Positions 8,452 through 24,346 of a stretch of 35,953 nucleotides of DNA are shown here, piece after piece (position 1 is the stretch's first letter; each line of letters opens with the position of its first letter). A program made the position numbers and the translations under genes. Location: positions 1 through 35,953 of the forward strand of contig CAJOJB010000043.1 of NCBI GenBank assembly GCA_905234635.1, written 5' to 3'. The notes below the pieces were generated by a model, which did not search any database, had not been told where the DNA came from, and saw only the letters and a list, made by a program, of their open reading frames with translations. The stretch is from an uncultured Eggerthellaceae bacterium (GTDB lineage Bacteria; Actinomycetota; Coriobacteriia; Coriobacteriales; Eggerthellaceae).

Positions 8452-9636
8452 ATGCCTTCCATGAAACGTTTACCTCTTACATTGTGTCTGTGCATGTTTT
8501 GCGTAGGTATTCTTCTTACGTCTTGCGCAGCCGAGTCCCTTGAAAAGATCCAGGACAACTTGGGTTTTCTTGAGGCAGAAGACGGCGAACTGGTCTTGCT
8601 TCTTAATACTGAGATTGATCTGACCACCGTACGCGCAAGCACCCATGATGTCATGGTGGAGGAAGCGCAGGAGCAGCTTCGTTCTTTCCATAAGCTTATT
8701 GATTCCCACCATGCCTACACTGACGCGGATGGGCAAACCGTTATAAATATGAAATACCTTAACGACCACTTTGGTGAAGGACCCGTAGAAGTTGACGATG
8801 TCTTACTTGGGTGTTTGGAAGAGGCCATCGACATGGCTGAGCTTACGCAGGGTTATTTCAATCCCACAGTTGGTTTGCTCGCGGATGTCTATGAGGGGCG
8901 CTTTGAACATGTAGGAAAAGTGCAGGAAAGCCCCACGCCAGCAGCAATAGAGGCGGCACGCGCAACGGTAGTGCCCTATGCGCAGTTGCGCGACCACATT
9001 GTCATAGACTGGAATGCACACACGGTTGACTTGCGACCCTATAAGGGCCAGGCATTTCGCGTGAGTCTTGGGGGTATTGGGAAGGGTTATGCACTTTCTC
9101 AATTGGGTTTTTCGCATGACACCTCGTATTTAGTGAGTGCAGGGGCTTCAAGTATGCGTGCTCATGTGGCACCCGACGAAGAGGGTGTTAGCTGGACGAT
9201 AGGTTCTCATGTGCCTGATTCCACCGATATCCTGTTTGCTTTTCGTCTTGATGACGGCTCTGTTTCTACTTCGGGCGATGACGAAAACTACTATCTGCTT
9301 GAAGATGGCACGCGTGTGCATCATATTCTTAATCCCTTTACGGGCGCGAGCGAAAACTATTGGCGCAATGTGGTGCTTGTAGGGGACGACGCAGGTGTAC
9401 TTGATGCCCTTTCAACGGCACTTTTTAATCTTGAAGATGAACAAGTTATTAAGGAACTGATAAGCGCTGTCGAGCAAAGCTATGATATGACTATCGACTA
9501 TTGTTTCGTAGCCGAAGAAGAAGCAGGCACCTTCGAGCTGCGCGGGAGCCAAGGCTTTTTCGACCGCCTTCTGCCAGAATACGTAAGCGACAAGTTAAAC
9601 CCACGCATGTATATCATGGACGAAGAAGGCGAATGA
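8452..9636 (+). CDS. apbE: ApbE-family FAD:protein FMN transferase, lipoprotein
   Basis: Lipobox LLTSC; LGGIGKGYA, SAGASS, VSTSGDDENY...HHILNPFTGA match ApbE motifs. Alternative start at 8461. Confidence 0.9.
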   Translation: MPSMKRLPLTLCLCMFCVGILLTSCAAESLEKIQDNLGFLEAEDGELVLLLNTEIDLTTVRASTHDVMVEEAQEQLRSFHKLIDSHHAYTDADGQTVINMKYLNDHFGEGPVEVDDVLLGCLEEAIDMAELTQGYFNPTVGLLADVYEGRFEHVGKVQESPTPAAIEAARATVVPYAQLRDHIVIDWNAHTVDLRPYKGQAFRVSLGGIGKGYALSQLGFSHDTSYLVSAGASSMRAHVAPDEEGVSWTIGSHVPDSTDILFAFRLDDGSVSTSGDDENYYLLEDGTRVHHILNPFTGASENYWRNVVLVGDDAGVLDALSTALFNLEDEQVIKELISAVEQSYDMTIDYCFVAEEEAGTFELRGSQGFFDRLLPEYVSDKLNPRMYIMDEEGE

Positions 9637-9663: not shown

Positions 9664-10869
9664 ATGGCCGTACATGTTATTAATGAAGCAAATCGCTGTC
9701 TCCAGTGCAAAAAGCCCAGCTGTGTTGAGGGCTGCCCCGTGCATACGCCCATTCCTTTGATTATTGAAGAGTTTAAACAGCATAAGCTCATGGAAGCGGG
9801 GGCACAGTTGTTTGCAAACAATCCGCTTTCGCTCGTGTGTGCCATTGTGTGCGACCATGAAGCCCAGTGTTCGGGGCATTGTGTCCTGGCGAAAAAGGAC
9901 GCACCCATTTCCTTCTTTAGTATTGAGCGTTTTATTTCCGATGCATTCCTTGACCGCATGCGTCCGTGCGTGGCTCAGCGCAAGGGGAAAAAAGCGGCGG
10001 TCATTGGAGCGGGGCCTTCTGGTATGACGGTTGCCCTGGTGTTGGCCCAGGCTGGCTATGACATTACTGTGTTCGACGATAATAGCCATGTGGGCGGCAT
10101 GCTTTATTATGGCATTCCTGAATTCCGTCTTTCGAAGAGCGTGTTGGCACGCTACCGCAAGGTTATGGATGCGTTTGGCATTCAATTCCGTCCGAATACC
10201 GTGCTTGGTGAAGCCTTGAACATAGAAGACTTGTTCCGCGACGGCTACGAGGCCATTTTTGTGGGTACGGGTGTGTGGCGCCCTAAGAACCTGGGAATTG
10301 AAGGTGAAAGCCTGGCCAATGTGCATTTTGGTATTTCGTATTTGGCCAACCCCGACGCCTATGCGCTGGGAGAAAAGGTGGCCATTATCGGCATGGGCAA
10401 TGTGGCTATGGACGTGGCGCGTACGGCTTTGCGGCATGGAGCCTTGGAAGTTACTTTATATGGGCGGTCCAAGCGCGTGGCAGCCAGTGAAAATGAAGTG
10501 GCCTATGCCAAGTTGGACGGGGCCGAGTTTGTGCATGGTATGGCAATCGAAAAGGTATTGCCAGAAGGCCCCGTGTTCAAGGTGGCTATCTTTGACGAAG
10601 ACGACAACGTGGTGGGTTACGAAGAAGATCCTGTTTGTATTCAGGCAGACTCAACCATTTTAGCGGTGAGCCAGGGACCGAAAAATAAGCTCATAAATTC
10701 GTCGCGATGCCTGGAAGGCGACAATCGTGGGTTGTTGGTTACCGACGAAAACTGCATGACTACCTGCGCAGGCGTGTTTGCGGCAGGGGACGTAGTGCAC
10801 GGGTCGAATGCTGCGGTGGATGAAGCAAAGCGAGCTGCTGCAGCCATGATTAAGTTCATGGAACGCTAG
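9664..10869 (+). CDS. GltD-like FAD/NAD(P)-dependent oxidoreductase with N-terminal FeS domain
   Basis: CLQCKKPSCVEGCPVHTPIP; GAGPSGMTVALVLAQAGYDITVFD; GMGNVAMDVARTALR; AAGDVVHGSNAAVDEAKRAAAAM. Confidence 0.9.
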   Translation: MAVHVINEANRCLQCKKPSCVEGCPVHTPIPLIIEEFKQHKLMEAGAQLFANNPLSLVCAIVCDHEAQCSGHCVLAKKDAPISFFSIERFISDAFLDRMRPCVAQRKGKKAAVIGAGPSGMTVALVLAQAGYDITVFDDNSHVGGMLYYGIPEFRLSKSVLARYRKVMDAFGIQFRPNTVLGEALNIEDLFRDGYEAIFVGTGVWRPKNLGIEGESLANVHFGISYLANPDAYALGEKVAIIGMGNVAMDVARTALRHGALEVTLYGRSKRVAASENEVAYAKLDGAEFVHGMAIEKVLPEGPVFKVAIFDEDDNVVGYEEDPVCIQADSTILAVSQGPKNKLINSSRCLEGDNRGLLVTDENCMTTCAGVFAAGDVVHGSNAAVDEAKRAAAAMIKFMER

Positions 10870-10888
10870 GGAACGGCCCGCCCCGCTA

Positions 10889-11010
10889 GGGGACGGTACC
10901 CCTGTCCCAAACGCTAGGGGACGGTACCTCTGTCCCATAGGGGACGGTACCTCTGTCCCATAGGGGACGGTACCCCTGTCCCAAACGCTAGGGGACGGTA
11001 CCCCTGTCCC
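10889..11010. repeat. Five-copy array of a 20-bp palindrome-like unit GGGGACGGTACCYCTGTCCC
   Basis: Units at 10889-10908, 10917-10936, 10940-10959, 10963-10982, 10991-11010; linkers AAACGCTA or ATA; a degenerate copy lies around 10864-10883. Confidence 0.95.
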
Positions 11011-11099
11011 ACATTTATACCTTGGGTAGAGCGCCGTCGTTGCGTCGCGCACTGTTGTTCCTCAGGTTGCTTGACAACACACGCTTAACTCATTACACT

Positions 11100-13822: not shown

Positions 13823-13830
13823 TGGTAATT

Positions 13831-13895
13831 TGGGAAATTGGGGTCGGAGGATTTTGTCCCAAAAATGGGAAAAATCCTCCGACCCCATTTTCCCA
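13831..13895. repeat. ~65-bp long palindromic repeat
   Basis: TGGGAAATTGGGGTCGGAGGATTTT pairs with AAAATCCTCCGACCCCATTTTCCCA around an inner TCCCAAAAATGGGA hairpin. Confidence 0.92.
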
Positions 13896-13946
13896 AAAAA
13901 CGCTGCTTGTGCTATTGTTTTCCAGTTACCAATGAAGGAGTAATAC

Positions 13947-15998: not shown

Positions 15999-17936
15999 CT
16001 AAAGGCTGCGGGTGAGGTAGAGCCCGTTGTCGGTAAAATCCAGATTGCGGTAGTAATTACGCGTACCGACTGCACTTATAACGTTCATTTTTTCATAACC
16101 CGCTTCACGAGCAATTTTGCAAGCCCGTTCGACCAGTGCGCGGCCAAGCCCTTGGTGTTGCGCGCCCGTCGTGGGGGCGTGAAGACGCGCGGCAGCACCG
16201 TAAACGTGGACTTCGCGAATCATGGCTTCCGTAGGTCTAACAGGAAGTGTTTCTGCATGGGCTTGCATCCAGTCTGCGTGGGGGAGGGACAAGCGCAAGA
16301 AGCCAGCAATACGGTTTTCTACGGCTGCATCCGGTTCGGCGGGAGCAACCCATTGCAAGAAGACTTCGCGGGTATTAGATGTGTCGTAGCTTTCCTCAAT
16401 CATTTCAAGTTTGTCGGCGCTGGTTTCGGAAGTGGCAATTTCGCGCATACGAATTTCTTGAACAGGCGACGCCCCTTCGGCAACCAGTGTTTCAACGCGC
16501 TGCTCCACCATTTGGCGGAGGTTGGGTTTTTTGTTGCCAGCCGCAATGTCATCGCTTGAAAGCGTGTGAGCAGGTGTAATAAGCACGTCGGCTGCAAGCA
16601 GGTCAACCAGTGTGTCTTCGGTGTAAGGCTGCCAGCTGCCGCTTTCGAAGAGCTTCACCAGCCCCGTGTCTTCAATGAGCACGCAGGGATAGAGCTTCAC
16701 TTCGTCGGGCGCGATGGCGGCATCGTGCACGAAGTTTTGGTAGTCGTCCTTGTCGCCTTCAGGGGTGACACCAGGCAGGTTTGCCATGAAGTGCGCATGG
16801 CTTTTGAAACCGAAGGCACGCGCCAGTTCAAAGGCTTCACGAACGCGCGCGAGCGGGGTGGGGCGCTGGCACGTTGCGGCAACCGTTTCATTGAGTGTTT
16901 GCACACCCATTTGGAGTTTCGTACAGCCTAAGTCGCGCAGCAGTCTTAAGCTTTCAGGCGTAATAGAATCGGGGCGCGTTTCGACCACCAGGCCCACCAC
17001 GCGATGGGCGGCATCTTCATTGGCAAGCTGCACTTCGTGTAGCTGGTCGAGGTTTCCTCCCTGAAGTGTTTCCAGGCTTTCCCAGGGTGAACCTGGGCCA
17101 TAGAGAGCATTGACTGCTTCGTTGTAGGTAGCGCTTCCATCCTTTATGCGCTGCTGCCATGCCTGTGTTTGCGCCACAAGCGTTTCTTCTTCGTACGTAA
17201 TACCCGCATTGGCATACATCGCAGCCCGCTTATGGGAATTTAGGGACGGAGGATTTTTCCCATTTGGGAATTTGGGGTCGGAGGATTTTTCCCAAAAATG
17301 GGAATTTGGGGACGGAGGATTTTTCCCATTTTTCCCAGAAGCGAATACATCTCCGACGCCGCCAGTGCTTTCACCTGCATCGTTCAGTGCGCGGAATAGT
17401 TCGCTTACAAACCACATTTGGTAGGCAGCCGAATAGTCCGTAAAACTACCACCCAGAATAATGAGTTCGACTTTGTCGGTTGCGTGGCCCATGGCCTCCA
17501 GCGCAGTTAACCTACTTGCCACTTGCAGGTAGGAGTCGAAGTAATTGCGTTCCGCCCGCTGGCATGCAGGTTCGGCATGGAGGTAGCTCTTGGGCATGCG
17601 CACGTCGTTGGGACAATAGATGCAGTTGCCCGCGCAGGCGTGCGGCTTAGTAATAACGGTAATGGTGGCCACCCCCGATGCCGTGCGACGCGGTTTCATC
17701 TGAATAGCGGCCAGCAAGGCGCGTTCTTCTTCACCCGACAAATTCCAGCTTTCCCATAACGCAGGATCGTCCTGCTTCACCTGAAGGTAGTAAGGCGCCA
17801 GTTGCTTCTTAGCGAAATGTTTTACCGGCTCCCGGAAGCGCTTGTTGTGCACCGCGATAATGCGGTCAACTTTGCGTGCGCTTAAGGTGCCCGCGTCTTT
17901 CAGTTCGGCAATTATGTCAGCCATCAATTCTTGCAT
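15999..17936 (-). CDS. Elp3-family radical SAM / GNAT tRNA uridine-34 modification enzyme
   Basis: Radical SAM CAGNCIYCPNDVRMPKSYLHAEPACQRAERN; C-terminal GNAT QHQGLGRALVERACKIAREAGYEKMNVISAVGTRNYYRNLDF; interrupted in frame by repeats. Confidence 0.92.
   Translation of the reverse strand: MQELMADIIAELKDAGTLSARKVDRIIAVHNKRFREPVKHFAKKQLAPYYLQVKQDDPALWESWNLSGEEERALLAAIQMKPRRTASGVATITVITKPHACAGNCIYCPNDVRMPKSYLHAEPACQRAERNYFDSYLQVASRLTALEAMGHATDKVELIILGGSFTDYSAAYQMWFVSELFRALNDAGESTGGVGDVFASGKNGKNPPSPNSHFWEKSSDPKFPNGKNPPSLNSHKRAAMYANAGITYEEETLVAQTQAWQQRIKDGSATYNEAVNALYGPGSPWESLETLQGGNLDQLHEVQLANEDAAHRVVGLVVETRPDSITPESLRLLRDLGCTKLQMGVQTLNETVAATCQRPTPLARVREAFELARAFGFKSHAHFMANLPGVTPEGDKDDYQNFVHDAAIAPDEVKLYPCVLIEDTGLVKLFESGSWQPYTEDTLVDLLAADVLITPAHTLSSDDIAAGNKKPNLRQMVEQRVETLVAEGASPVQEIRMREIATSETSADKLEMIEESYDTSNTREVFLQWVAPAEPDAAVENRIAGFLRLSLPHADWMQAHAETLPVRPTEAMIREVHVYGAAARLHAPTTGAQHQGLGRALVERACKIAREAGYEKMNVISAVGTRNYYRNLDFTDNGLYLTRSL
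17233..17337. repeat. Three tandem copies of the TGGGAATTTGGGGWCGGAGGATTTTTCCCA repeat inside elp3
   Basis: Read directly; 105 nt from the first TGGGAA to the last TTTCCCA; related to the palindrome at 13831-13895. Confidence 0.95.
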
Positions 17937-20498: not shown

Positions 20499-21407
20499 AT
20501 GTCAATTGATGCTCTAGAACAACGGCTTGCTGAAGTGCTCGAAGCGGACCAAATCCTGCGCAACGAACCAATGTCGCGCCACACTACCTTCAAGGTGGGC
20601 GGTCCAGCGGACTTGTTTGTTGCTCCAAGAACCGTCGATGAAATCAGTGCCTGCGTGGCGGCCGCCCAAGAAGCGGGCATCCCTTGGCGCGTGTTGGGCG
20701 CGGGTTCCAATGTGCTCGTTGCCGACGAAGGCGTGCGTGGCCTGGTTATTCATTTGGGCAAGAATTATTCCAGCATTGCGATTAACGGTACCTTTATCTA
20801 TGCCCAGGCGGGTGCTACCAACGAAGAAGTGGCTATGAAGGCCCTAGACAAAGGTTTGCGTGGCTACGAATTTGCAAGCGGTATTCCCGGTAGCATTGGC
20901 GGAGCGGCTATCATGAACGCGGGTGCCTACGACGGTGAATTCAAGGACGTGTGCGAAAACATTATTTGCCTAACGCCCGAAGGTGAAGTGCTTGAAATTG
21001 GCGTGGATGATGCCGACCTCGGCTATCGCCATTCGCTCATGATGGATAAAGGCTACGTGGTGCTCGAGGCTATTCTCGGCTTGCAACCAGGCGACACAGC
21101 CAAGATTGCTGCCAAGATTGAAGAACTCACGCGCCGCCGTGCCGAAAAGCAGCCGCTTGAAATGGGCAGCGCTGGGTCTACCTTTAAGCGCCCGGAAGGT
21201 TACTACGCGGGTCAGCTTATCGAAGAGGCGGGCATGCGTGGGCACCGCGTGGGGGACGCCATGGTGTCTGAAAAGCATTGCGGCTTCGTGGTGAACGCGG
21301 GCAACGCGACCGCCGCCGACGTCCTTGCGGTTATCCACGATGTGCAAGAAGCTGTCCTTGCTAACTCTGGCGTCCAGCTTGAACCCGAAGTAAGAATTTG
21401 GAGCTAG
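20499..21407 (+). CDS. murB: UDP-N-acetylenolpyruvoylglucosamine reductase
   Basis: TTFKVGGPADLFVAP; LGAGSNVLVADEGVRGLVIHLG; GIPGSIGGAAIMNAGAYDGEF; AGSTFKRPEGYYAGQLIEEAGMRGHRVGDAMVSEKHCGFVVN. Confidence 0.96.
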   Translation: MSIDALEQRLAEVLEADQILRNEPMSRHTTFKVGGPADLFVAPRTVDEISACVAAAQEAGIPWRVLGAGSNVLVADEGVRGLVIHLGKNYSSIAINGTFIYAQAGATNEEVAMKALDKGLRGYEFASGIPGSIGGAAIMNAGAYDGEFKDVCENIICLTPEGEVLEIGVDDADLGYRHSLMMDKGYVVLEAILGLQPGDTAKIAAKIEELTRRRAEKQPLEMGSAGSTFKRPEGYYAGQLIEEAGMRGHRVGDAMVSEKHCGFVVNAGNATAADVLAVIHDVQEAVLANSGVQLEPEVRIWS

Positions 21408-21412
21408 GGGAC

Positions 21413-21601
21413 TTCCTTATACCTCCTAAACAACAAAATCGCGTCTTAACACCAAGCTAAGTGCGCAAATGAAGCGCGCAATAACTGGGTCCGATTTCAC
21501 CTCATCCCTCCACACTCGACCCAGTAATTAAACTAGCGCGCTTCTTAACTGCGCACTTCCATTGGCTAACGCTCCAATAGTTGTTTAAGAGGCGTAAGGA
21601 A
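21413..21601. repeat. Left copy of a large palindromic element (165-bp core 21425-21589 plus 12-nt hairpin arms)
   Basis: Core is the reverse complement of 23639-23803 with 4 mismatches; flanking arms TTCCTTATACCT/AGGCGTAAGGAA complementary at 10 of 12. Confidence 0.95.
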
Positions 21602-21663
21602 TTCCTATTATTCGCTCATATCAAAACGCGTTGTGCTGACAAGAATTGCGGTAGAATAGCAAC

Positions 21664-21771
21664 GTCAGTCTAACCGAATAACGTGTGTGTCTGTGCGCTG
21701 GGTCCTGAGGACACCTGCGCATCGGCGCATGTTCACGCATCGCGATGGTTAGGCTGACACCCGTGGGTGTC
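21664..21771 (+). ncRNA. Candidate structured 5' leader RNA
   Basis: 12-bp closing stem GTCAGTCTAACC (21664-21675) / GGTTAGGCTGAC (21747-21758, one G-U), inner hairpin GGTCCTGAGGAC flanked by GCGC/GCGC, and overlapping perfect hairpin GACACCCGTGGGTGTC (21756-21771). Confidence 0.45.
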
Positions 21772-21823
21772 CTCTGTCTACCGTTGAGCGACACCCTTTA
21801 GCTAAACAGAAGGGATCGTGAAC

Positions 21824-22369
21824 ATGGCAGGCGAAAAGAAAAGCAAGAAGAATCTAATCATTGGCATTATCGCCGCATTACTTATTTTCGGCGCGATTGG
21901 AAGTTGCACTGGCGGTAGCAAATCTTCATCGAGCTCTTCTGAAGAAGAATCTTCTAGCAGTGTAACAACGGAGCAGTCTGCAAGTAATGCCAAGCAAGAG
22001 GAGAGAGTTGCTAGTAGCGAATTAGCTGAAGCTTCTGAATCTGAAGTCTCAGTCATTAAACTCGTTTCAAGCGAGATGGGTGAATATGGTCAGGAAATGG
22101 TTTGGAATGCTGGGACGGAATCTGAAGAGAAGAAAATTGTTTTCTATGTTCCAAGTGGTAGCTATACAGCAAAGAATGTTGGCACTAATACAACTCAAAT
22201 GGGTGTTGAAGAAGGTGTACAAGTAAATGAAGACGGCTGGGAAGAACCCGCAAACATAGGTGACATTCTCGTTCTTAAACCAGGGGATTCTGGCGACCTG
22301 AGTGTACCCGATGGCTGGTTCATTGAGCTTACTGATTCTGCCCAAATTGAGCTTACCCCGAAAGCATAG
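21824..22369 (+). CDS. Small putative lipoprotein with Ser/Glu-rich linker
   Basis: KNLIIGIIAALLIFGAIGSCTGGSKSSSSSSEEESSSS; conserved-looking C-terminal domain of unknown function. Confidence 0.7.
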   Translation: MAGEKKSKKNLIIGIIAALLIFGAIGSCTGGSKSSSSSSEEESSSSVTTEQSASNAKQEERVASSELAEASESEVSVIKLVSSEMGEYGQEMVWNAGTESEEKKIVFYVPSGSYTAKNVGTNTTQMGVEEGVQVNEDGWEEPANIGDILVLKPGDSGDLSVPDGWFIELTDSAQIELTPKA

Positions 22370-22371
22370 CA

Positions 22372-22584
22372 ATGGATAAAGAACTGTCTCCAATTGTTAC
22401 CTATTCCGTTGTATGCAGCATCATTGGTGCTTTGATTGGAATTGTGGTCTTGTTTGTATATGGCATTGCTCATTGGCCACTTATTGTTCGAGTTATCTTC
22501 GTAGTTGGCGTTATTGTTATTGGTTTTCTGATTGGCTTTCTTATTGGTGATGTCGCTAGGCGCAGACAGAAGAATGTTGAATAA
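22372..22584 (+). CDS. Small two-TM membrane protein
   Basis: 70 aa, two hydrophobic helices, starts 3 nt after the upstream stop. Confidence 0.6.
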   Translation: MDKELSPIVTYSVVCSIIGALIGIVVLFVYGIAHWPLIVRVIFVVGVIVIGFLIGFLIGDVARRRQKNVE

Positions 22585-22600
22585 GCGATAGGAGTTTATT

Positions 22601-22798
22601 GTGGGCCTTTCATTTCGCAAGTCAAAGAAGATTGCTCCTGGTGTGCGTGTTACGGTTAGCAAAAGTGGTGTAAGTGTCTCGGCCGGGAACAAAATTGCTG
22701 GTGTATCGAAGAGCTCCAGTGGTAGGACCACAAAACGCGTAACTATTCCTGGAACAGGAATTACTTGGCGTAAGAGTAAATCTAAGAAAAAGAAGTGA
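22601..22798 (+). CDS. DUF4236-like protein
   Basis: GTG start; MGLSFRKSKKIAPGVRVTVSKSGVSVSAGNKIAGVSKSSSGRTTKRVTIPGTGITWRK matches the DUF4236 pattern. Confidence 0.8.
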   Translation: MGLSFRKSKKIAPGVRVTVSKSGVSVSAGNKIAGVSKSSSGRTTKRVTIPGTGITWRKSKSKKKK

Positions 22799-23484
22799 AT
22801 AGAGAAAAGCTTTACAACATATTTGAAGGTGAGGGAGGGCAGGCTCTTCAATATGGACGCATAATGTCTGTCTTGATTGTTGTTTCCCTCCTGCCACTTT
22901 GCCTCAAAGAACCACCGAGCTGGCTTCTTGTCATCGAATGGGCTTGTGTTGCAATTTTTATTGTTGATTATCTCGCAAGATGGGTAACGGCAGATTTTAA
23001 GCTACAGCGCGGTGCATTGTCTTTTTTAATATATCCGTTTACGCTCATGGCTATAATCGACCTTGTTTCGATACTTCCGGCATTTATCGCTCTTAATCCT
23101 GCTTTCAGGACATTGCGTATACTTCGATTGCTTCGCGTATTACGTGCATTCAAGTTAGTTCGCTATAGCAAGGGAGCGAATGCGATTATCCATGCTTTCG
23201 TTAAGCAGAAGAGTGCTCTTAGCGTTGTTGTTGTTTTAGCACTTGGCTATGTGCTTTTATCAGCCTTGATCATTTTTAATGTTGAGCCTGATACATTCCC
23301 AAGCTTCTTTGAGGCAGTGTATTGGGCCGTGGTTTCATTAACGACTGTTGGCTATGGAGATTTATACCCAAGTACAGAAATAGGTCGCTTTGTTGCAATG
23401 GTGTCTGCATTTGTTGGTATAGCGATAGTGGCGTTGCCAGCTGGAATTATTACTGCTGGGCTCCTTGAAGAAATCTCTGATTAG
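22795..23484 (+). CDS. Voltage-gated-like potassium/ion channel
   Basis: S4-like FRTLRILRLLRVLRAFKLVRYSKG; selectivity filter SLTTVGYGDLYP; six-TM pattern; GTGA overlap with the upstream gene. Confidence 0.9.
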   Translation: MNREKLYNIFEGEGGQALQYGRIMSVLIVVSLLPLCLKEPPSWLLVIEWACVAIFIVDYLARWVTADFKLQRGALSFLIYPFTLMAIIDLVSILPAFIALNPAFRTLRILRLLRVLRAFKLVRYSKGANAIIHAFVKQKSALSVVVVLALGYVLLSALIIFNVEPDTFPSFFEAVYWAVVSLTTVGYGDLYPSTEIGRFVAMVSAFVGIAIVALPAGIITAGLLEEISD

Positions 23485-23513
23485 ATGCTCCAAAAATATA
23501 GTATTATTGGAAC

Positions 23514-23565
23514 TGCAAAAGCGCCCGAAAGGTATGTATTTTACCTCCTCCGGCGCTTTAGCATT
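23514..23565 (+). terminator. Candidate terminator hairpin
   Basis: AAAGCGCC...GGCGCTTT inverted repeat downstream of the channel gene. Confidence 0.5.
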
Positions 23566-23625
23566 TCTGAGCACTATTCCCTGTATATATTTCTTGTCGT
23601 CTGTCTATGCTCTGGAAGCAGTTTT

Positions 23626-23816
23626 GGCTCCTTGTTGCCTTAAACAACTATTGGAGCGTTAGCCAATGGAAGTGCGCTGTTAAGAAGCGCGCTAGTTTAA
23701 TTACTGGGTCGAGTGTGGAGGGATGAGGTGAAACCGGACCCAGTTATTGCGCGCTTCTTTTGCGCACTTAGCTTGGCGTTAAGACGCGATTTTGTTGTTT
23801 AGGGCAACAAGGAGCC
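23626..23816. repeat. Right copy of the palindromic element (core 23639-23803 plus perfect 13-bp hairpin arms)
   Basis: Arms GGCTCCTTGTTGC (23626-23638) and GCAACAAGGAGCC (23804-23816); core inverted relative to 21425-21589. Confidence 0.95.
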
Positions 23817-23818
23817 TC

Positions 23819-24346
23819 TTAGTTCAAGAGGTCAGCTAGTTCGGTGATGGATGTGACTTCAGTGAAGGGGCTCTCTTCTGGGTCCAGGAAGCCGTTAGTT
23901 ACCAGGTCGTGCAGCGCTGCCACAAAGTGGTCGTAGCAGCCGTTGATATTCACGATAAACACGGGCTCATGTATGAACCCAAGTTTCTTTTGCGAAAGCA
24001 CTTCGGTTATTTCTTCAAAGGACCCAATGCCGCCAGGCAGCATGATGAAGGCATCGGCTTCGCCATAGAGCAGGGCTTTGCGTTCTGCCATGGTTTCAAC
24101 AATGGTCGCGTTTTCAAGGCGCACGTTCAGCTGCTCCCGTTCGACCAGAAAGCGGGGGATAATGCCATGGACGGAACCGCCATGTTCAAGCACGGCGTCG
24201 GAAAGCGCTCCCATCATGCCTATGCCTCCACCGCCATACACGAGCGTGTGACCAGCCTGAGCCATCCAAATTCCCAAATCGATTGCAGATTGCTTAAAAG
24301 CGGGATCATTGCCTTCGTTAACACCGCAATACACCGTAATGTTCAT
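23819..24346 (-). CDS. LOG-family protein (TIGR00730-type Rossmann fold)
   Basis: MNITVYCGVNEGNDPAF...LVYGGGGIGMMGALSDAVLEHGGSVHGIIP; MLPGGIGSFEEITEVLS. Confidence 0.9.
   Translation of the reverse strand: MNITVYCGVNEGNDPAFKQSAIDLGIWMAQAGHTLVYGGGGIGMMGALSDAVLEHGGSVHGIIPRFLVEREQLNVRLENATIVETMAERKALLYGEADAFIMLPGGIGSFEEITEVLSQKKLGFIHEPVFIVNINGCYDHFVAALHDLVTNGFLDPEESPFTEVTSITELADLLN

Follow-up and report, generated by a model that had tools for sequence, protein, structure and literature searches.

The window analysed here is a stretch of 35,953 nt from an uncultured bacterium of the family Eggerthellaceae, and it belongs to a MAG (G000) whose assembly comprises 1.71 Mb in 132 contigs and is 81% complete. 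Between murB and a LOG-type gene of this window lie four genes, which are real open reading frames, co-directional and arranged in one tight operon behind a leader, as had been claimed in the original prediction. Pfam families were assigned to orf3 and orf4 (DUF4236 and Ion_trans; Table 1), and neither the lipoprotein orf1 nor the membrane protein orf2 matched any Pfam family above its cut-off. The GC content of the cassette is 44%, vs 56% for murB. The predicted absence of a recombinase or transposase was confirmed for the cassette genes, none of which matched such a family in Pfam; no dedicated recombinase was noticed among the window ORFs either, part of which were scanned. A PADLOC search gave no convincing match of the cassette to a defence system. 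The leader in front of orf1 (21640-21817) carries further inverted repeats, GTCAGTCTAACC...GGTTAGGCTGAC and GACACCCGTGGGTGTC, and had no Rfam match.

Table 1. Features of the murB-LOG region and copies of the F2 repeat; positions refer to the window unless a locus is named.
Feature	Position	Strand	Basis or remark
murB, resident left neighbour	20499..21407	+	ORF; same place in G002, 97% aa identity
Block without G002 counterpart: L copy, leader, four genes, kch terminator	21408..23592		Right edge accurate to ~20 bp
L outer stem, left arm GGACTTCCTTATACCTCCT	21409..21427		Paired flank
F1 copy L, dispersed nested hairpin repeat	21428..21586	+	Absent from G002 junction
L outer stem, right arm AAGAGGCGTAAGGAATTCC	21587..21605		Paired flank
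orf1, predicted lipoprotein	21818..22369	+	ORF
orf2, small membrane protein	22372..22584	+	ORF
orf3, DUF4236 protein	22601..22798	+	Pfam, E 6e-19
orf4, Kv-type ion channel (kch)	22795..23484	+	Pfam Ion_trans, E 6e-29
R outer stem, left arm GGCTCCTTGTTGCC	23626..23639		Arm also in G002
F1 copy R, resident	23642..23800	-	G002: same place and same stem, cassette-free
R outer stem, right arm GGGCAACAAGGAGCC	23802..23816		Paired flank
LOG-type gene, resident right neighbour, pointing inwards	23819..24346	-	Stop codon few bases from R stem
F2 copies	L023:1275-1460; L031:1245-1420; L035:1635-1845; right flanks of L018/L019		

The four genes are enclosed by two inverted elements, L on the left and R on the right, both of which belong to a dispersed family designated F1. 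In a repeat search of the window, L (21425-21589) and R (23639-23803) were recovered as inverted arms of 165 nt that are 98% complementary and separated by a spacer of 2049 nt, a pair far above every other inverted pair in the window. When the boundary was taken from other F1 copies (AAACAAC...GTTGTTT, 159 positions), L and R differed by 4 mismatches, so that the claimed reverse-complement pair of 165 bp with 4 mismatches was borne out. Individually, L and R are long imperfect hairpins nested in a further inverted repeat that is specific to each copy. Folded with their flanks, they reached -80 to -103 kcal/mol, and the pairing continued beyond the 165 bp into sequence in which L and R diverge. 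The outer stem of L starts 2 bases after the murB stop codon, and that of R ends 2 bases before the LOG stop codon.

The distribution of F1 was determined by blastn and with a covariance model. By blastn, F1 was detected at 8 places in G000 and, in its congeners G001 and G002, at 8 and 13, respectively, which supplied the dispersed copies that the original prediction had proposed to look for in the host genome and its relatives, and at none in the other 58 genomes of the same search. A covariance model built from 18 copies was searched in 140 genomes of the family Eggerthellaceae and gave 12 copies in G000, 18 in G002, 8 in G001, 2 each in G004 and G005, and 1-2 in five genomes from four other genera (10 of the 140 genomes positive overall), these counts including a few cases in which the palindrome matched itself on the other strand. 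No relevant match was obtained against the covariance models of Rfam 15, and none in plasmid or phage records with one F1 copy as the query against each. Four matches to a 17-base loop motif in viral contigs were not scored by the covariance model and were taken as chance. For genome-wide detection of palindromes, an arm-alignment scan worked and folding energy did not.

The whole F1 element is an imperfect palindrome, whose apical loop, TTCACC(A/T)CATCCC, is nearly invariant among the copies while the stems covary; subtype A ends with the AAACAAC...GTTGTTT boundary given above. Clean empty sites were found in G002 for the F1 copies on contigs C40 and C7 of G000, which speaks for mobility or turnover of F1. 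With dispersed short non-coding copies, empty-site polymorphism and terminal inverted repeats, F1 shows the features of MITEs and other small repeats, and it is a new family of small interspersed palindromic repeats, a known kind of element. Among the copies for which both neighbours were callable, 14 lay between convergent, 11 between tandem and 1 between divergent genes, the tandem ones being divided into 6 sense and 5 antisense; these calls were automatic and misassigned L and R, which by hand are tandem (murB, orf1) and convergent (channel gene, LOG), respectively. F1 thus sits at the 3' ends of genes, and a role as a bidirectional terminator or transcript end is plausible. An integron attC cassette was rejected for F1, the copies being inverted and dispersed and not in arrays.

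No mobilising transposase or target duplication was established for the F1 copies, and no F1 halves flanking a transposase were present among the F1 matches. Y1 transposases are present in five of six congeners and absent from the F1-rich G002, which argues against them as F1 mobilisers. On C7 of G000, the T-run CTTTTC occurs on both sides of F1, which is compatible with a target duplication or with two terminators.

Cassette-free murB-LOG junctions, which the original prediction had proposed to seek in relatives, were found in two congeners, the sister species G002 and G004. In G002 the junction consists of murB, 205 bp, an F1 copy with the stem of R, and LOG, both L and the cassette being absent; the gap between murB and LOG of G004 is ~100 bp and contains neither F1 nor cassette, all genomes compared here being MAGs or drafts, whose assemblies break at palindromes. 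Alignment with G002 placed the return of resident sequence at ~23592. Since the novel DNA therefore ends ~45 bp before R, R is not the border of the inserted block, and since G002 carries R in the same stem and lacks the cassette, R was resident before the genes came. The core occurs as dispersed single copies, one of the findings that would have spoken against a mobile unit, and the cassette is probably not ancestral at this junction. No close homologue of the channel gene was found in G001, G002, G004 or G005. Taken together, we infer that this lineage gained the low-GC cassette next to an R that was already resident, and that two losses are not the explanation.

The near-identity of L and R had been taken as a sign of recent spread or gene conversion. 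Spread of the element stood up to the comparison of genomes, and the near-identity as something special did not: R of G000 and R of G002 agree at 155 of 159 positions, exactly as L and R do. The resemblance of L to R does not exceed that of R to its G002 orthologue, so the identity of L and R reflects the uniformity of the subtype and not a recent paired event. The genes around the junction differ by ~13% at the DNA level between G000 and G002, and against this divergence the 155/159 of R indicates that the F1 subtype is either constrained or homogenised. The inverted layout of the pair is also weak evidence, because the orientation of the core is unstable between species at other loci; at two pairs of orthologous loci (L004/L019, G000 vs G002; L023/L024, G002 vs G001), the flanks match and the core between them is turned round.

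These results bear directly on the composite mobile unit that had been proposed. Like a composite transposon, the cassette has two near-identical inverted elements around accessory genes, but it has no transposase and its right-hand copy was in place before the genes arrived. A composite transposon is unlikely: the 165-bp copies are too short for a transposase gene, the cassette matched no transposase or recombinase family, and the border at R pre-existed. The idea of a unit bounded by L and R is not supported by the same G002 junction, in which R stands without L or cassette, nor by the homology that resumes before R is reached. What lies at this locus is probably an operon acquired next to a dispersed hairpin repeat that was already resident, and the block was most likely not moved by L and R. 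In the order of events proposed, R would already have occupied the spacer between murB and LOG when this lineage and G002 separated, and the low-GC block of four genes would have been gained later in this lineage between murB and R, either together with a second F1 copy (L) or close to one. L may have arrived with the cassette.

An invertible segment, in which recombination of L with R would flip the operon as an on/off switch, was also considered. Inverted repeats of 165 bp lie 2 kb apart here, and such repeats could support RecA-dependent inversion. However, there is no recombinase in the cassette, the pair is present in only one of the three F1-rich genomes, and the repeats enclose the promoter side as well as the four genes, so that the whole operon would turn without being separated from its promoter. 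We regard this switch as extremely improbable.

The relatives of the cassette genes outside this locus were also inspected. In 52 public genomes, orf1 adjoined kch in one (L074), and neither orf2 nor orf3 was convincingly found beside kch. Lipoprotein and channel relatives were mostly apart from each other, and those checked were not near F1; one relative of the orf1 lipoprotein (L257, G133:C156) adjoins two tyrosine-recombinase-like genes.

A different relation between F1 and the foreign genes would be capture, in which an incoming F1 recombines with a resident F1, the foreign genes enter and a second inverted copy is left. It would account for a resident and an extra F1 around foreign genes here, and a possible further cassette bounded by the same core, of the kind that the original prediction had suggested looking for, was found. 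The 8.2-kb contig C101 of G001 (L123, 1-8182) carries at either end the same 141 bp in inverted orientation, made up of F1 and flank; a length of exactly 141 resembles an assembler k-mer and so implies that a repeat node adjoins each end of the contig. By inspection, its genes encode HsdR, two HsdS-like proteins, a RhuM-like protein and HsdM, that is, a type I restriction locus. bioY adjoins F1 in G001 and also in G002, where coaX follows and no restriction genes are present; as coaX is missing from G001, the far side of the contig could not be placed. The arrangement of a cassette between F1 copies may therefore occur twice, here and in C101. On contig C107 of G000 (L013, 1740-2935), a DUF4143-type ATPase gene and half an F1 adjoin each other between trxB and tilS, a position that in G002 holds an intact F1; named by inspection, this gene is apparently without its N-terminal part. 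C101 and C107 hint that F1 sites attract gene gain. On the other hand, no unit of L, genes and R was found at other loci, resident sequence resumes 45 bp before R and not at R, and no F1 was found beside the closest relatives of orf4 and orf1. In addition, F1 pairs this close also arise by chance: two of 12 randomly placed copies fell within 2.25 kb in 16% of simulations (P ~0.16), and within 8.5 kb in 20-59%. Capture is thus unlikely, and acquisition beside a resident repeat is preferred.

The outer stems, the most unusual trait of F1, were analysed across its copies. Complementary flanks outside the core were present in 33 of 34 F1 copies, with a median local score of 21.5 vs 8 for flank pairs taken between copies, a control whose upper tail is high because some copies share arms. 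Arms are common to different loci at L018, L020 and L156, and others are completely different. In the outer stem of eight copies of one subtype, 13 of 23 pairs had changed on both sides, none of 500 shuffles reached the covariation score, and the signal was lost on a one-base slide; in the core, 97% of cells were paired, with 34 double changes (again 0 of 500 shuffles) and inner stems that mostly change without G-U intermediates. Related copies inherit changes together, so that these counts do not represent independent events. A further F1-like nested hairpin lies in the nrdD-nrdG spacer of G000 (L130:6190-6370) and of G004 (L159), with the same apical loop in G000; its inner element is common to both genomes, and its outer arms have diverged and yet are paired in each. 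A conserved cis element of nrdD-nrdG was rejected for this hairpin, because an F1-like match was obtained only in G000 and G004 and in none of 14 other genomes of the family with a close nrdG.

The origin of the arms was approached through copies with an informative flank. At one F1 relative (G149; L150, G149:C45, 1420-1710), perfect arms of ~80 bp surround the element, one of which includes the last ~33 bases and the stop codon of the adjoining 4Fe-4S protein gene, the other being its inverted copy. The coding 3' end inside this arm points to copying of flanking sequence. It was conceivable that terminators were there first and received F1 in their loops, their stems becoming the outer arms, and most copies do lie within stems beside stop codons. 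However, the empty sites of C40 and C7 in G002 lack the arms, and the C7 insert directly follows the T-run of a resident terminator that is intact in both species. The coding sequence in the G149 arm and the sharing of arms by different loci also do not fit insertion into terminators. We consider such insertion very unlikely in general, and as the origin of the arms it is contradicted by the two empty sites and the G149 coding arm.

Template switching during replication is a known source of hairpins and also preserves them (PMC8794818), and it is known to homogenise the arms of inverted repeats and invert their spacers (PMC8604942). These effects together match the arm turnover, the double changes and the inversion of the core. 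Judged from this pattern, stems that are paired and nevertheless differ are most likely the product of template switching at the hairpins. F1 forms one nested hairpin in which the apical loop and the inner stems are conserved and the outer stem is copy-specific. In the mechanism proposed, template switching during replication would re-copy one arm from the other, keep the stems paired and at times flip the core. A wider proposal, that F1 is a hairpin seed which at any landing site copies the adjoining DNA, coding sequence included, in inverted form, grows its own stems and flips its core by template switching, and is also an entry site for foreign blocks such as the channel operon and the type I restriction system that leave inverted F1 borders, is rather doubtful as a whole.

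Selection on RNA could also keep the stems paired. F1 would then be a 3'-end structure, either a terminator or a stability element, with a protein-binding apical loop. The nearly invariant loop amid covarying stems and the location at gene 3' ends favour such a role, but the copies have no orientation bias relative to transcription and cores are inverted in place (an imperfect palindrome could, however, function in either direction), a T-run after the stem is lacking in many copies, stems of 46-80 bp exceed the needs of termination, and there was no Rfam match. Selected RNA is a serious possibility, one that falls short of probable. Template switching is retained as the likeliest source of the pairing.

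F1 resembles several known elements. The ERIC, NEMIS and BIME repeats of Proteobacteria are comparable by description, with no relation claimed, having a core of ~126 bp, an imperfect palindrome, intergenic positions and mosaics of palindromic units. BOX, RUP and SPRITE of pneumococcus (PMC3049150; reviewed in PMC10969869) are, like F1, shorter than 250 bp, non-coding and dispersed in intergenic 3' regions; they also form long hairpins with extensive RNA structure, are limited to a narrow group, and occur in clusters with repeats of other families or as insertions next to them, and SPRITE resembles an over-long terminator. Unlike these, F1 has another sequence and another host, and its outer stem is hypervariable yet paired, extends to ~80 bp of perfect pairing and once includes coding sequence. 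No published named repeat closer to F1 than the pneumococcal ones was found in the literature searched. The quasipalindrome hairpins of template switching (PMC8794818, PMC8604942) share with F1 the homogenisation of arms, double compensatory changes and spacer inversion. In contrast to them, the hairpins here are seeded by a dispersed repeat and have long arms at many loci, where the mechanism is deduced from the pattern.

Other repeats were observed in the window and in the relatives. A second dispersed family, F2, of ~140 bp contains several conserved hairpins (CGCGACCGCTTCCGCTGTTC...CACTGGATTGTTT...GTGCAATTTTTGGCAACAGC...ACTCACGACATCGCTTT); it is also nested in copy-specific paired arms, often adjoins F1 and gave dozens of matches in G002. 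A third palindromic repeat (TTTGGGAATTTGGGGTCGGAGGATTTTTCCCA and its complement) occurs in the window at 13828-13898 and 17230-17333 and on contig C83 of G000 at ~9390-9460, where it fills a spacer in which G002 has F1. At 10859-11011 of the window, near-tandem copies of TAGGGGACGGTACCCCTGTCCCA lie between two genes.

The attractive reading of this locus as a mobile cassette without a transposase is thus corrected as probably wrong, and an inverted pair of dispersed repeats can mimic such a cassette. F1 itself offers dozens of natural cases, within genomes and between congeners, in which the arms differ and yet pair and the cores invert in place. Comparison of strains thereby offers a direct test, in bacteria, of the role proposed for template switching in the formation and upkeep of hairpins.
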